Below are positions 36,283 to 63,229 of a stretch of 64,000 nt of DNA, piece after piece; the stretch's first letter is position 1, and the number at the start of each line of letters is the position of its first letter. The notes under the pieces are model-generated. The model saw nothing but the letters and a program-made list of their open reading frames with translations, was not told where the DNA came from and did no database searches. Source of the DNA: Marinifilum sp. D714 (GTDB lineage: Bacteria > Bacteroidota > Bacteroidia > Bacteroidales > Marinifilaceae). The stretch covers positions 124,001-188,000 of the forward strand of contig NZ_JALPNU010000005.1 of assembly GCF_030851345.1 (NCBI RefSeq). Reading direction: 5' to 3'. The position numbers and the translations under genes were made by a program.

Positions 36283-36330
36283 ATCAAGTATTTAATCTAA
36301 TCGGCAAAAGAATTCTGAAATTAAATTAAA

Positions 36331-36792
36331 TTAAATGTAATATTCAGAAGTATGCTTTATCTCTTTAATTACAAATGTACTATTCAGTACACCAATATTC
36401 TTTATTTTAGACAGTTTATAACGAACAAATTCGTGATATTCTTCAAGACTCTTTACGTGAATTTTTAAAATAAAATCGACTTGACCTGCCATGTGGTAAC
36501 ACTCCTGAACTTCCTTTAAATCCTGAATTTGCTCCTCAAATTCATCAATAAAAGTCTCATCATGATAGCGCATGGAAACCTGACAAATGGCTGTTACACT
36601 TCGTTCAATTCTTTTCTTATCGAGAATGGCCACGTACTTTTTAATGAATCCCTGATTCTCCAACCTTCTGATTCTTTCATACACTGGCGAAGGAGTTAGA
36701 TTCAACATACTAGCAATCTCTTTTGCTGTTTTCTTTGAGTCGGTTTGCAATATTCTAAGAATGGTTTTATCAGTCTGATCAAGCTTATCCAT
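36331..36792 (-). CDS. Lrp/AsnC family transcriptional regulator
   Basis: 153 residues. Winged HTH at about 1-60: LDQTDKTILRILQTDSKKTAKEIASMLNLTPSPVYERIRRLENQGFIKKYVAIL. RAM/ligand-binding domain at about 65-145: VTAICQVSMRYHDETFIDEFEEQI, ECYHMAGQVDFILKIHV. Such proteins respond to amino acids or related metabolites and form octameric discs. Its own promoter region carries a palindrome over the predicted start of transcription, consistent with autoregulation. It is 49 bp upstream of the hybrid kinase and the two could be co-transcribed. Confidence 0.93.
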   Translation of the reverse strand: MDKLDQTDKTILRILQTDSKKTAKEIASMLNLTPSPVYERIRRLENQGFIKKYVAILDKKRIERSVTAICQVSMRYHDETFIDEFEEQIQDLKEVQECYHMAGQVDFILKIHVKSLEEYHEFVRYKLSKIKNIGVLNSTFVIKEIKHTSEYYI

Positions 36793-36818
36793 AAAAGAAA
36801 TTTTTACTCTGATTTATA

Positions 36819-36864
36819 ACGTTTGCGGAAACGTAAAAGTAGTTTTATCTATAAAGTGTCACAA
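36819..36864 (-). promoter_or_regulatory. Promoter and operator-like palindrome of Lrp/AsnC gene
   Basis: On the minus strand TTG (36862-36864), a 20-bp gap and TACTTTTA (36834-36841) fit the Bacteroidota promoter. The inverted repeat ACGTTT-GCGG-AAACGT (36819-36834) begins at the -7 box and covers the predicted start site near 36827. Confidence 0.5.
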
Positions 36865-36899
36865 TATCGGTAAATTTTACTCATTTGAACAAAAACACT

Positions 36900-37010
36900 A
36901 TGTTTTTTATCGGAAAGACCTTTACTTTGTCAGTATATAACACTGGAAACAACAACAAATACTCATATAATGTCAGCTATTTAATAGCTAAACAAACACA
37001 ACACACTTAA
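36900..37010 (+). CDS. Possible 36-aa small ORF upstream of a terminator
   Basis: ATG at 36900 opens a 36-codon frame (MFFIGKTFTLSVYN...) ending TAA at 37010, 21 bp before a strong plus-strand terminator. There is no clear promoter or Shine-Dalgarno sequence and the composition is not distinctive. It is offered because a plus-strand terminator here otherwise has no gene to serve. Confidence 0.15.
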   Translation: MFFIGKTFTLSVYNTGNNNKYSYNVSYLIAKQTQHT

Positions 37011-37030
37011 CTAACAATTAGGGTTAATAT

Positions 37031-37067
37031 AAACACCTTTATTCTCTCAGGATAAAGGTGTTTTTTT
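37031..37067 (+). terminator. Plus-strand terminator with no known upstream gene
   Basis: AACACCTTTAT and ATAAAGGTGTT form an 11-bp perfect stem, 9-nt loop, then TTTTTTT. The flanking annotated genes are both on the minus strand. Confidence 0.75.
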
Positions 37068-37070
37068 ATG

Positions 37071-37370
37071 CACTTCCAATTTGGGAAAGGCTATATTTTT
37101 CCATTTTAAACTTCCCCAGTCTGGGGAAGGACTCTTTTTTTTCATTTTGCATTTCCCCAAGCTGGGGAAGGCTTTTTATTTTCAATTGGAGCTTCCCCAA
37201 GCTGGGAAGGGCTCTCTTTTTTCGTTTTCTCCTTTTCCCAAACTGGGGAAGCCTTTCTTTTTTCAGTTCGAGTTTCCCCAAGCTGGGGAAGGTCTCTTTT
37301 TTTTAAACGGGCTTTCCCCAACTTGGGGAAGGCGTTTTTTTTCAAAATTGACTTCCCCAAAATCCAAAAC
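37071..37370 (+). repeat. Tandem array of terminator-like hairpins, 40-bp period
   Basis: Seven hairpins of the form CTTCCCCA-AGC-TGGGGAAGG plus a degenerate eighth half-unit. Their centres are near 37081, 37120, 37161, 37201, 37242, 37282 and 37322, so the period is 40-41 bp. Each is followed on the plus strand by a T-run of about 5-8, so each unit looks like a rho-independent terminator. Open frames through it (repeating SLPQLGK/FPKLGE) are by-products of the repeat. The array occupies most of the 36793-37453 spacer. Confidence 0.85.
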
Positions 37371-37395
37371 TTGTCTTTTTTTCCAAAAAAAATCA

Positions 37396-37434
37396 CTGCA
37401 TAAAAAAATGCGCCTCAAAACTGTGACGCATCCT
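37396..37434 (-). terminator. Terminator of the S9 peptidase gene
   Basis: ATGCG and CGCAT arms around a 14-nt loop; followed on the minus strand by TTTTTTTATGC. It lies about 20-50 bp after the stop at 37454. Confidence 0.7.
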
Positions 37435-37453
37435 TCTATATTAATTTCAGGTT

Positions 37454-40255
37454 CTATTTCTTTAATTCATAACCATCCATTTTTCCTTTTTTAACTGCAG
37501 GAATCCCATCAGTCATCCAAACCGGAGCAGGTTTTCCCTTCAAATAATAATCGAAGAATTGCATGGTTCTAATCGATAAGTCCATTCGGTTAGGACGTTT
37601 TCTTAAGTTATGCTCCTCGTTGTTATAGGTTAGCATCCAACATGGTTTTTGCAAACGGCGCATTGCTACAAACAACTCGATTCCCTGATACCATGGTACC
37701 GCACCATCGTTATCGTTGTGCATAATTAAAAGCGGAGTTTTAATTTTTGGCGCGAAGAAAACCGGCGAATTTTCGATGTACTGCAAAGTACTGTTCCAAA
37801 GCGTTCCTCCAATTCTACTTTGAGTACGTTCGTACTGGAACATACGGCTCATACCGCTCCCCCAACGGATTCCACCATATGCTGATGTCATATTACTTAC
37901 AGGAGCTCCCGCCATTGCACATTTGTACAAATCGGTTCTGGTTACCAGGTAAGCAATTTGATATCCACCCCAGCTTTGTCCTTGCAAGGCAACATTTTCT
38001 TTATCGATAAAATCATAACGATCCATCATTGCCAATGTTCCTGTAACAATTGAGCTATAAGCCGATTCTCCAGGATATCCAACCTTGTGATAAGTGATAT
38101 CTGGCATGAAAATAAGATAGCCATTGCTTACACAATAACTTGGATTAATGATAGACCAATTTGGCTGTGGCACATGATAATTGTGTAATCGATCAGATGT
38201 TCTTTCGTAGAAATACACTAACATCGGGTATTTTTTGTTGGGATCGAAATCTTCTGGCTTGTACAATAAACCTTGTAATTTCTCCCCATCTCCTGATGTC
38301 CAATCAACCAATTCAACATTACCCCAGTTGATATTCTTTTGCTGTGGATTCGCATCAGACACTTTAGTTTGATTCGAAAAATTCAATTTACTGGTCCAAA
38401 GGTTTGGATAATCAACGAAAGTTGATCGTTTGAACATGATTTGTTCAGCAGTTTTTGCCTTTTCCACACCATATAACTTGGCATCTTCGAACACAATTTG
38501 TTTCGGATCATCCTCTCTTTTCAGTTGATAATAGCCCGATTTTTTATTGAACTCATGAAATGCACTTAAAAGAACTGGCTTTTTCAAATCAATAAACAAT
38601 TCCTCATCATCCAATTTCACGTAATCAAAACAGATATTGTTTCTGCGACCAAAACCATTAGTCAAATTCACTGCCGGTTTCATCCCCGCCGGATCAATCA
38701 TCCAAAAATCGTAACGGTCTTGAATGATTACATTCTTATCGCCTTTGGTCCACCCTACTATTCCATATGGATTTGGATCGTTTGGAGTATCGTGAGTTTC
38801 GCTGTAGAAATTCGCATTGATTTTTTTGGTTAAAGCAACTGTTTTTTTGCTTTCAATCTGGTAAGAATACCAGATGCTATCTTGAGTTTCGTACCACAAT
38901 AAATATTTCTGAGCTGGAGAAATACGAACATCTGAATTTTTCTTTTCCAGAATCAATTCTCTCTTACCCGTACTGGTATTTACAAGATAATAATCGGAAT
39001 ACCAATCGTCCCACGAAGTTAATTGCTGATATGGAAGAGGTGAATTACCCAATGCCAATTCAGAGTTTCCATGATCATACAATTCAACACTACGCATATC
39101 TTTATCTGCCAGCTGAACCAGTTTATTGTTTTTAGTGTGATATACAGCCATCCAAGTTCGCTTTTTCTCTTTCTCGGCCTGCACTTTTTGTTGTGGCTGC
39201 AACAATGGATCTTTCCAGTTCCATACATCAACATGGTATTTTTCCTCATCCAACAAGCTATCTTTCACCTCTTTTTCTGGCTTTGGAGCAACGCCAAAGT
39301 ACAGTTTCTCGCCATCTCTCGAGAAAGAAATTCTTCCATTTTTGCTTACTGTCCAATTCTCCTGAATTTCACGAGACAAAGTATCAACAATACGTTTGCT
39401 ATTGCTAGCTAGATTGCCATAATACAATTCGTAACATTTGTTTTTAGTTGTATCGGCAGTAAAAATAAAAGAAATCTGATCTCCGTTCGCCGAAATGGTC
39501 GCTTTATCTGCCTCTCCCACTTTCTCGAAAACCTGGTTTATTTCCTCTGCTTTTCCATCAAAGGTTTTAACCATTGCAGTTTGTGTGCTATCTCCAACCG
39601 ACTGAATAAAATTTACAGCATTTCCATTTATGGATAGTGCATAATCGGTTACATCTTCAAAGTTAAATTCCTTACCATTTACAAAGTTCTTGACAACAAG
39701 CTTACCCTTTTTAATCTTGTCTTTCCCATTCTTTTTCTTAGGCTTTTTAACTTCTACCGAATCCTTTGCCAAACTATCTTTTTCTTCCTTTGGCATTTCC
39801 AAATAGTAAGCCATCCATTCCCCTTTTTCCTCTGGCATTTGGAAAGATTTTAACTCCGGTAATTTCACCAATTCCTTATTGCTTAAATTCCAAATCCCAA
39901 TAGAATCTTTTGGCATATCCTTCTTATCAACTTTATCTAATTTGGCCTGACGAACTGTGTCATATTGAGCTTTAATTTTAAAAGTTAAGATTTCTGATTT
40001 TGGTGAAAATTCAGCCTGAAATCCTCTGGCTATTGAGTCCAATTTTTTCGTTTTTACCTGGTACAGATAAAGAAATCCATCCCCCTTTTGTGGATTTACT
40101 TCATAGGTTATCCATTCTCCATTGGCAGAAATCTTCTGATTCTTTAAATTTTTCCATCCATCATAATCAGTATGCTTCAATGGTACTTTTTGCGCATAGG
40201 CTGTTACTTGAATCATAAGCAAACAGACCAATACGGCTTTTAATAAATTTCTCAT
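37454..40255 (-). CDS. S9 family serine peptidase (prolyl oligopeptidase-like), exported
   Basis: 933 residues with a signal peptide (NLLKAVLVCLLMIQVTAYAQ, cut near 22). A beta-propeller domain spans about 30-640. The alpha/beta-hydrolase domain follows, with the nucleophile in GQSWGGYQ (Ser761), Asp850 in HNDNDGAVPW and His882 in NNEEHNLR. A Lys- and Asp-rich insertion around 160-190 (KKPKKKNGKDKIKKGK) is unusual. It probably trims peptides in the periplasm. Last gene of an apparent operon with cysQ (45 bp upstream) and the SLC13 permease, though no functional link is obvious. Confidence 0.92.
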   Translation of the reverse strand: MRNLLKAVLVCLLMIQVTAYAQKVPLKHTDYDGWKNLKNQKISANGEWITYEVNPQKGDGFLYLYQVKTKKLDSIARGFQAEFSPKSEILTFKIKAQYDTVRQAKLDKVDKKDMPKDSIGIWNLSNKELVKLPELKSFQMPEEKGEWMAYYLEMPKEEKDSLAKDSVEVKKPKKKNGKDKIKKGKLVVKNFVNGKEFNFEDVTDYALSINGNAVNFIQSVGDSTQTAMVKTFDGKAEEINQVFEKVGEADKATISANGDQISFIFTADTTKNKCYELYYGNLASNSKRIVDTLSREIQENWTVSKNGRISFSRDGEKLYFGVAPKPEKEVKDSLLDEEKYHVDVWNWKDPLLQPQQKVQAEKEKKRTWMAVYHTKNNKLVQLADKDMRSVELYDHGNSELALGNSPLPYQQLTSWDDWYSDYYLVNTSTGKRELILEKKNSDVRISPAQKYLLWYETQDSIWYSYQIESKKTVALTKKINANFYSETHDTPNDPNPYGIVGWTKGDKNVIIQDRYDFWMIDPAGMKPAVNLTNGFGRRNNICFDYVKLDDEELFIDLKKPVLLSAFHEFNKKSGYYQLKREDDPKQIVFEDAKLYGVEKAKTAEQIMFKRSTFVDYPNLWTSKLNFSNQTKVSDANPQQKNINWGNVELVDWTSGDGEKLQGLLYKPEDFDPNKKYPMLVYFYERTSDRLHNYHVPQPNWSIINPSYCVSNGYLIFMPDITYHKVGYPGESAYSSIVTGTLAMMDRYDFIDKENVALQGQSWGGYQIAYLVTRTDLYKCAMAGAPVSNMTSAYGGIRWGSGMSRMFQYERTQSRIGGTLWNSTLQYIENSPVFFAPKIKTPLLIMHNDNDGAVPWYQGIELFVAMRRLQKPCWMLTYNNEEHNLRKRPNRMDLSIRTMQFFDYYLKGKPAPVWMTDGIPAVKKGKMDGYELKK

Positions 40256-56899: not shown

Positions 56900-57012
56900 A
56901 AAGTCTAAAAAGTCGAAGAGTCAAATAGTCGAAGAGTCAAATAATCGAAGAGTCAAATAGTCAAATAGTCGAAGAGTCAAATAGTCGAAGAGTCGAATTG
57001 TCGAAGGTCGAA
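56900..57012. repeat. Tandem 8-bp repeat (AGTCGAAG/AGTCAAAT)
   Basis: About 14 units of an 8-mer alternating between AGTCGAAG and AGTCAAAT, fading into GTCGAAGGTCGAAA at the end. It lies between the HAD gene start and the wzc stop. Related text occurs at 51776-51800, 59555-59590, 60843-60880 and 62920-63083. Confidence 0.75.
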
Positions 57013-62844: not shown

Positions 62845-62919
62845 GATTAAAACAGGTTGAAAGTAAAAAAAGTTATAAGGTATTTCCAGCAGGACTGGAG
62901 TGAAAGATATAAAGTCGAA

Positions 62920-63083
62920 GATCGAAGGTCAAAGATCGAAGGTCAAAGATCGAAGGTCAAAGATCGAAGGTCAAAGATCGAAGGTCAAAGATCGAAGTCA
63001 AAGATCGAAGTCAAAGATCGAAGGTCAAAGATCGAAGGTCAAAGATCGAAGTCAAAGATCGAAGGTCAAAGATCGAAGTCAAA
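62920..63083. repeat. Tandem 13/14-bp repeat (GATCGAAGGTCAAA)
   Basis: Twelve units in a row. Unit lengths are 14 (five times), 13, 13, 14, 14, 13, 14, 13; the 13-mer lacks one G (GATCGAAGTCAAA). Units are otherwise nearly identical, so the array is young or actively homogenised. Open frames crossing it are translations of the repeat. It lies between the dehydratase start and the DegT stop; the rest of the 62845-63229 spacer has AT-rich text and a CCCCTAAAGGGG-type short palindrome near 63170. Confidence 0.9.
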
Positions 63084-63229
63084 GATCGAAAAGCCTAAGG
63101 TCTAAAGTGTAATTCTGAAATGTCGAGGTAAGTTACAAAAGAGACTTTTACTACAAATCACCCCTAAATCCCCTAAAGGGGACTTTGTAAACAGCACTGC
63201 ACCTTTAAGCCCTAGGGGTTTGGGGTAAA

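Follow-up and report, generated by a model that had tools for sequence, protein, structure and literature searches.

A tandem array of terminator-like hairpins occupies the intergenic region between an Lrp/AsnC-family regulator gene and an S9 (prolyl oligopeptidase) family peptidase gene of Marinifilum sp. D714, at positions 37071–37370 of the 64,000-nucleotide stretch of contig NZ_JALPNU010000005.1 that was analyzed (hereafter the window). The reading that we tentatively favor from sequence comparison is that the array is a redundant, dispensable terminator stack, termination being its most likely effect.

Results

The array comprises eight units, six of them full palindromes (37111–37331) and two of them degenerate end units; the "seven to eight" hairpins of the preliminary description thus hold as a count of units, exactly six of which are complete. 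The hairpins start at 37071, 37111, 37152, 37192, 37233, 37273, 37313, and 37352, giving steps of 40, 41, 40, 41, 40, 40, and 39 (range 39–41 bp), and the full palindromes read [C/T]TTCCCCA-nnn-TGGGGAAG or a near variant. On the + strand, unit 1 (37071–37089) is a degenerate hairpin, CACTTCCA-ATT-TGGGAAAG, followed by TTTTT. Next come hairpin 2 (37111–37129; CTTCCCCA-GTC-TGGGGAAG, then T8), hairpin 3 (37152–37170; TTTCCCCA-AGC-TGGGGAAG, then TTTTTATTTT), hairpin 4 (37192–37210; CTTCCCCA-AGC-TGGGAAGG, then T6), hairpin 5 (37233–37251; TTTTCCCA-AAC-TGGGGAAG, then T6), hairpin 6 (37273–37291; TTTCCCCA-AGC-TGGGGAAG, then T8), and hairpin 7 (37313–37331; TTTCCCCA-ACT-TGGGGAAG, then T8), whose stem extends to 37311–37333; all six were called by a terminator scan. 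Unit 8 (37352–37370) has the left half only (CTTCCCCAAAAT), without a right arm, followed by T7, and a similar right end was also found in arrays at other loci. A + strand T-run of 5–8 follows all eight units, with its onset at nt 3–7 past the 19-bp palindrome.

TRF reported period 40 over 37082–37360 (6.9 copies), period 41 over 37082–37304 (5.5 copies), and, with the top score of 271, period 81 over 37082–37360 (3.5 copies). The terminator scan of 36300–37800 made 10 predictions, all on the + strand, against 1.2 ± 0.9 in shuffled sequences; they correspond to seven distinct sites, six within the array and one just to its left at 37031. These results bore out the initial observations that the hairpins are spaced at 40–41 bp, that each is followed by a + strand T-run, and that the terminator-like units all lie on one strand. 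The RNA fold of the array had a z of −5.2, with none of 100 shuffles equally stable, and in its minimum-energy fold neighboring units pair long-range rather than forming one hairpin per unit. A 137-aa ORF running through the array on the + strand of the window was read as chance because 40–41 is not a multiple of 3 and the ORFs are not kept in genomes G001 and G003; the longest ORF across the array is on the opposite strand in G001, and G003 has none of at least 70 aa.

Both flanking protein genes, identified as ORFs, lie on the − strand: the regulator gene (lrp; 36331–36792; Pfam PF01037, PF13412, and PF13404) and the S9 peptidase gene (37454–40255; Pfam PF00326). Inspection of the 3′ end of the latter revealed a terminator-like stem with T7 on the − strand (37401–37431), which is absent from the scan calls (scan loop limit, 8). 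Directly upstream of the array, on the same (+) strand, we identified by conservation and fold an ncRNA-like unit (36921–37068) that is divergent from lrp and consists of a TTTACTTTG box (36921–36929), an A/C-rich body, and its own terminator, called by the scan (37031–37068; 15-bp stem at 37031–37063 plus T7). The box is presumably the Bacteroidetes −7 promoter element. The body is rich in CAACAACAA. The unit is present in all eight aligned genomes, representing five genera, and its TTACTTTG was found in 8/8 genomes when two alignments were combined, two rows of one alignment beginning inside or past the box. As read by eye from the alignment, the terminator stem differs in sequence among genera with its pairing kept, and the window copy of the unit folded with a z of −4.55. 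Between G000 and G001, 3/238 sites of the leader plus ncRNA class differ, and 13/208 sites of the array spacers. Rfam 15 gave no match at gathering score across the window, ncRNA-like unit and array included. We regard the unit as a candidate lrp-linked small RNA; if it is expressed, the locus would be convergent, with the ncRNA on the + strand and the S9 gene on the − strand. The initial remark that neither flanking gene is on the + strand needs correcting for this conserved ncRNA-like unit with its own terminator. Both flanking units of the array already carry terminators.

The array is present at the orthologous site in G000, G001, and G003, where its spacers match unit by unit, and the G001 array is longer than the others by one unit. 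At the orthologous site of G002, the array is gone, one half-site is left, and both flanking terminators are intact. By the nucleotide identities of the S9 gene (G001–G002,.925; G001–G000,.923; G000–G002,.896; G003 versus these three,.874–.879), G002 groups with G000 and G001, and the absence of the array therefore looks like a loss. The copy-number variation that the preliminary description proposed to look for among relatives takes the form of whole-unit differences among G000, G001, and G003 and total loss in G002, and conservation that of an array kept unit for unit in the former three. Fewer core columns than spacer columns differ, but not significantly so (G000–G001, 0/56 versus 13/208, p = 0.08; G001–G003, 5/56 versus 38/206, p = 0.10).

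Downstream of the S9 gene, the core palindrome was found in none of the 18 readable S9 loci in other genomes. This test covered 19 loci (18 outside Marinifilum plus G004), one of which had 26 nt after the gene, and the stretch searched ran up to lrp if that was less than 900 nt and was otherwise 700 nt. In seven of the 18 array-free loci, from four genera (G009; G011; G012 and G069; G055, G057, and G058), lrp adjoins S9 as it does in the window. In G004 the match is to a partial S9 gene of 56% identity that has no lrp in the surrounding 1.5 kb, and the conclusions on the orthologous site do not extend to this genome. Since the 18 other S9 loci are without the array, seven of them with the same lrp neighbor, the array at the window site was probably gained within Marinifilum. 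Its apparent loss in G002 and its absence from other genera at this site indicate that it is dispensable.

Further arrays of the same unit, which the preliminary description proposed to search for, were found elsewhere in Marinifilum genomes as well as in a sister genus and a third genus, and all loci examined are intergenic. Locus B, located 3′ of a different S9 peptidase, has an array unit like that of the window in G001, G003, M. breve, and G011; locus C has an array in G001, G003, and G011 and a truncated copy in G000; both loci are common to two genera. In G000, arrays occur on C61 and on C26, with weak matches besides, and locus D, in G001 and G002, is a two-unit form without a clear T-run. 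G015 contains three copies of a dispersed repeat (roughly 430–560 bp, 81–89% identity to the query copy) with an array inside, each in a different gene neighborhood; by eye they hold 6, 8, and 5 full hairpins (6, 6, and 5 by regex, which missed variant stems). A fourth G015 array, locus G, is also found in G062. The hairpin centre in G015 differs from that in Marinifilum, with the T-run position and the 41-bp step retained. The suggestion of a mobile repeat therefore fared unevenly: the dispersed repeats of G015 agree with it, but loci B and C are common to two genera.

A covariance model built on a pair of neighboring units, which favors a 41-bp step by design and was run under stricter search filters that drop weak matches, matched 14 of the 56 family genomes (E ≤ 0.01), some of these matches being other units (G004, G039, G050, and G053 among the 14), and 2 of 294 genomes besides the window's own in an even sample of 295 genomes of the order (E ≤ 1e-4). 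Searches of plasmid and phage collections gave no match to the array; viral contigs contained 10 stretches with single pattern matches. The three G015 loci had no Rfam match, which ruled out an rRNA-operon terminator at these repeated loci. The S9 peptidase of the window shares 29% identity over 283 aa with that of M. breve locus B, which argues against a recent gene-plus-array duplication. An in-place inversion of spacers between loci A (the window locus) and B was seen by eye at terminal units only and was dropped.

Several observations were made alongside these loci. Locus C (L322:5072-6843, L321, L319) is rearranged among species: in G000 the upstream genes differ and the array is truncated, and in G002 the locus is without the array and without the 248-aa gene downstream of it. 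Non-coding regions of more than 1 kb in G015 (L235:6014-7326 and L237:6962-9002) are made up of dispersed repeated segments, the array being just one of several. A contig end of G004 (L229:908-1285), a genome of the same genus, carries 9.2 copies of a different unit (GGGAAAGGCTTTGCATTTTTACATGGGGCTTTCCCAAAGCA) arrayed with a 41-bp period. Elsewhere in the window, an 8/16-bp repeat of the AGTCAAAT / AGTCGAAG type occupies 56902–57006, and a 14-bp tandem repeat of AAAGATCGAAGGTC that resembles it (about 13.7 copies, 94% matches) occupies 62903–63090.

Across three genera, 74 of 90 hairpins (67 from Marinifilum and G011, units under the score threshold excluded, and 23 from G015 and G062) have a T-run of at least 5 in the following 16 nt; the G011 array at locus C has poor T-runs in most spacers. 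The T-run strand is that of both neighboring genes at all five co-directional loci (one-sided p = 0.03), namely B, C, and the three G015 copies. The loci behind this count are few. G000_C26 and G011_C4 were merged as locus C, locus D was excluded for its unclear T-run, and the 76-aa ORF that lies on the opposite strand close to the third G015 copy was not treated as a gene. Of the two remaining loci, G is convergent, and so is A provided that the ncRNA-like unit is included. The initial idea of a fail-safe barrier fits the orientation insofar as the T-runs follow transcription at the co-directional loci and point the same way as the ncRNA-like unit, but at the window locus they oppose both flanking protein genes, which are on the − strand.

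In the C–G columns of the 67 hairpins, T·G (wobble on the T strand) outnumbered C·A by 63 to 28; in the 51 unique hairpins the counts were 47 and 25, with a p value of 0.013 that is optimistic because the hairpin rows are related sequences. This excess favors pairing in the RNA of the T strand. In stability the core hairpins of the T strand did not exceed those of the A strand (p = 0.65), and hairpins with flanks were more stable on the T strand (p = 0.036). Extended stems close the gap between palindrome and T-run in some units, but the flanks paired no better than swapped flanks (p = 0.28). The T-run often begins 5–6 nt past the palindrome, which is later than is known for canonical terminators. 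A 48-row alignment of Marinifilum and the sister genus gave no sign of compensatory covariation (score 0.112 versus 0.153 in shuffles, 500 of 500 shuffles scoring at least as high), and sliding the pairing partners reduced the paired cells from 92% to 34–74%. The core CCCA/TGGG is nearly invariant in the 67 hairpins. As judged from this alignment, what is kept within the Marinifilum/sister-genus clade is the core sequence, not compensating pairs. The preliminary description had set conserved hairpin pairing against random drift of the stems; the near-invariant core speaks against drift, but covariation is missing within the clade, and replacement of paired arms was seen in more distant arrays only.

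Such arrays were found in other Bacteroidales. G023 belongs to another family of the order, and its 41-bp arrays contain CTTGCCCAAGCTGGGCAAG, in which both arms are changed at one pair (CTTGCCC..GGGCAAG); they are without the Marinifilum-type T-run and, by eye, have a CAGTTCGAG stretch in common. G323 has a third version, again without that T-run. We ran TRF on 120 stretches, the matches listed for a loose CCCC-hairpin pattern in named genomes that allowed only steps of about 32–46 bp, and obtained 32 arrays, 14 from Bacteroidales (nine genomes) and 18 from other taxa. Among these listed matches, the period was 41–43 in 11 of the 14 Bacteroidales arrays (two others being about 3 × 41 and one 3 × 21) and in 1 of the 18 others; for arrays of at least three copies, the corresponding counts at period 41–43 were 10/11 and 0/7. 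A stricter detector retained four arrays only among the matches listed, all from Bacteroidales, with periods of 41.0–42.9. In a Tannerella MAG (L177), 20 units lie exactly 41 bp apart, the arms are paired in 19 of 20, and the stems are of two types (13 CCCC/GGGG and 6 CGCA/TGCG). An Odoribacteraceae MAG (L089) has paired arms in 8/9 units (3 CACT/AGTG and 5 CCCC/GGGG). Both arrays keep the hairpins and the period, and the Marinifilum-type T-run is missing; comparison of their units indicates that pairing is retained while the stem sequence of both arms is replaced. These distant arrays may be either homologous to the Marinifilum array or convergent.

Comparison with known systems

Like intrinsic (Rho-independent) and tandem terminators, the array presents hairpins followed by T-runs on one strand at the 3′ ends of transcription units. 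It differs from them in that its six to eight units are nearly identical and repeat at a fixed 40–41-bp step, in having stem cores that are conserved in sequence with the T-run set back 2–6 nt, and in having relatives without the Marinifilum-type T-run. REP/BIME elements with RAYT transposases also form arrays of regularly spaced intergenic palindromes. REPs are described as carrying a GTAG or CGTC tag beside the palindrome (PMC3733652), and the copy number of REP/BIME is given as usually more than 100 per genome (PMC2817692). Neither tag occurred in the 6 nt before and 8 nt after the palindrome of any of the 67 hairpins, and the array, in contrast to REP/BIME, is low-copy, G000 holding two array places plus weak matches. 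The Y1_Tnp domain was present in 14/17 genomes, array-bearing or not, and the core palindrome was found in none of the 19 Y1 neighborhoods examined, out of 66 Y1 matches. REP/BIME membership was thus rejected on tag, copy number, and missing RAYT association in the neighborhoods examined. Four Y1 neighborhoods (L281, L285, L286, and L289) contain repeated hairpins with a 7-bp stem (e.g. CCTCGGG..CCCGAGG) that look RAYT/REP-like and unrelated to the array.

BrickBuilt MITEs of Porphyromonas gingivalis, described with 23-nt direct repeats, a leader, a tail, and the TIR GAGACCTTTGCA (PMC4596501), are likewise intergenic tandem repeats of variable copy number in Bacteroidales, and the G015 copies also lie within a dispersed repeat. 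The array units are, however, palindromic and 40–41 bp long instead of 23 nt, and TIR-like matches in the window were at chance level (7 versus 5.5 expected), with none within the array; assignment to this family was rejected. In CRISPR arrays, too, a palindromic repeat alternates with short spacers at a fixed period, but there the repeats are identical and the spacers unrelated, whereas here the repeat varies and the spacers follow a consensus and reappear at other loci and in other species; CRISPR was rejected on this ground. A search of the open-licence PMC literature retrieved no description of such hairpin arrays.

Discussion

In the interpretation that we favor, the window array is a local copy of an intergenic palindrome-array family of Marinifilum and related genera. 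A unit of this family, which recurs at intervals of 40–41 bp, consists of a 19-bp palindrome (C/TTTCCCCA-nnn-TGGGGAAG) and some 22 nt more. Most units in the Marinifilum lineage carry a T-run 2–6 nt past the palindrome on one strand, and since the T-run follows the palindrome on that strand, the unit is an intrinsic-terminator-like hairpin there. The T-run strand is the one in which the upstream unit would be transcribed, in this case the conserved + strand ncRNA-like unit, and the array would most likely stop read-through past that unit's own terminator, including any that continued antisense to the S9 gene. The arrays change by whole units, which probably come and go through recombination or slippage. 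Because the array is dispensable and the hairpin and the 41-bp step occur without T-runs in the wider set, the arrays may exist for another, DNA-level reason or for none.

One such reason would be a phased array: spaced at about four helical turns, the palindromes would either be bound by a DNA-binding protein or extrude as cruciforms along a single helix face. The T-run would then be a lineage-specific addition, with spacing and palindromy conserved rather than termination. We consider this unlikely as an account of the window array, although several findings point to it: a period of 40–43 bp recurs in arrays of unrelated sequence, the 41–43-bp period is concentrated in Bacteroidales among the matches listed (11/14 versus 1/18 arrays), the 20 units of the Tannerella MAG hold exactly 41 bp across two stem types with 19 of 20 paired, G023 changed both arms and is without the Marinifilum-type T-run, and the CCCA/TGGG core hardly varies among the 67 hairpins. 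Against it, the binding protein is putative, the evidence on period comes from a pattern that allowed steps of about 32–46 bp and from 14 arrays in nine genomes, the stricter detector gave four arrays only among the matches listed, and the difference between core and spacer divergence is not significant (p = 0.08 and 0.10).

It is similarly improbable, in our estimation, that the array is a neutral or selfish tandem repeat of BIME- or MITE-like character, spreading between genes and sized by slippage, with its likeness to terminators incidental and tolerated at gene ends. The three dispersed copies in G015, which differ in gene neighborhood and hairpin number, are consistent with such a repeat, as are the absence of array A from other genera at the window site, its loss in G002, and the intergenic position of all loci examined; however, loci B and C are common to two genera, the T-runs follow transcription at 5/5 co-directional loci, and no link to a Y1 transposase emerged in the neighborhoods examined (0/19, of 66 matches). 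A functional array RNA, giving nested short RNAs or a hairpin sponge fed by ncRNA read-through, is very improbable, since, although a conserved ncRNA-like unit lies directly upstream and near-identical hairpins with variable loops are repeated, that unit's own conserved terminator precedes the array and the unit is kept without the array in G002 and four other genera.

Stacks in which six to eight nearly identical terminator-like hairpins follow one another at a fixed step are, to our knowledge, unusual in nature. If the arrays terminate transcription, as the terminator-stack reading proposes, the bacterium would insulate a convergent pair, the ncRNA and the S9 gene, with an expandable element, and a natural terminator part would be on offer. 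A broader proposal, possible but doubtful, is that these arrays belong to an undescribed class found between genes in Bacteroidales, with a palindrome every 41–43 bp (about four helical turns) irrespective of sequence. Stem, loop, and spacer would change, the stems being swapped on both arms at once, with spacing and pairing kept. The arrays would be built or maintained by an agent able to gauge a length of about 41 bp, be it a binding protein, a recombinase, or a replication feature, Marinifilum being a branch in which the array has turned into a one-strand terminator stack. If one agent does set the 41–43-bp period in arrays unrelated in sequence, it would represent a new chromosome-organizing or repeat-building activity in Bacteroidales, an order common in the gut and the sea.
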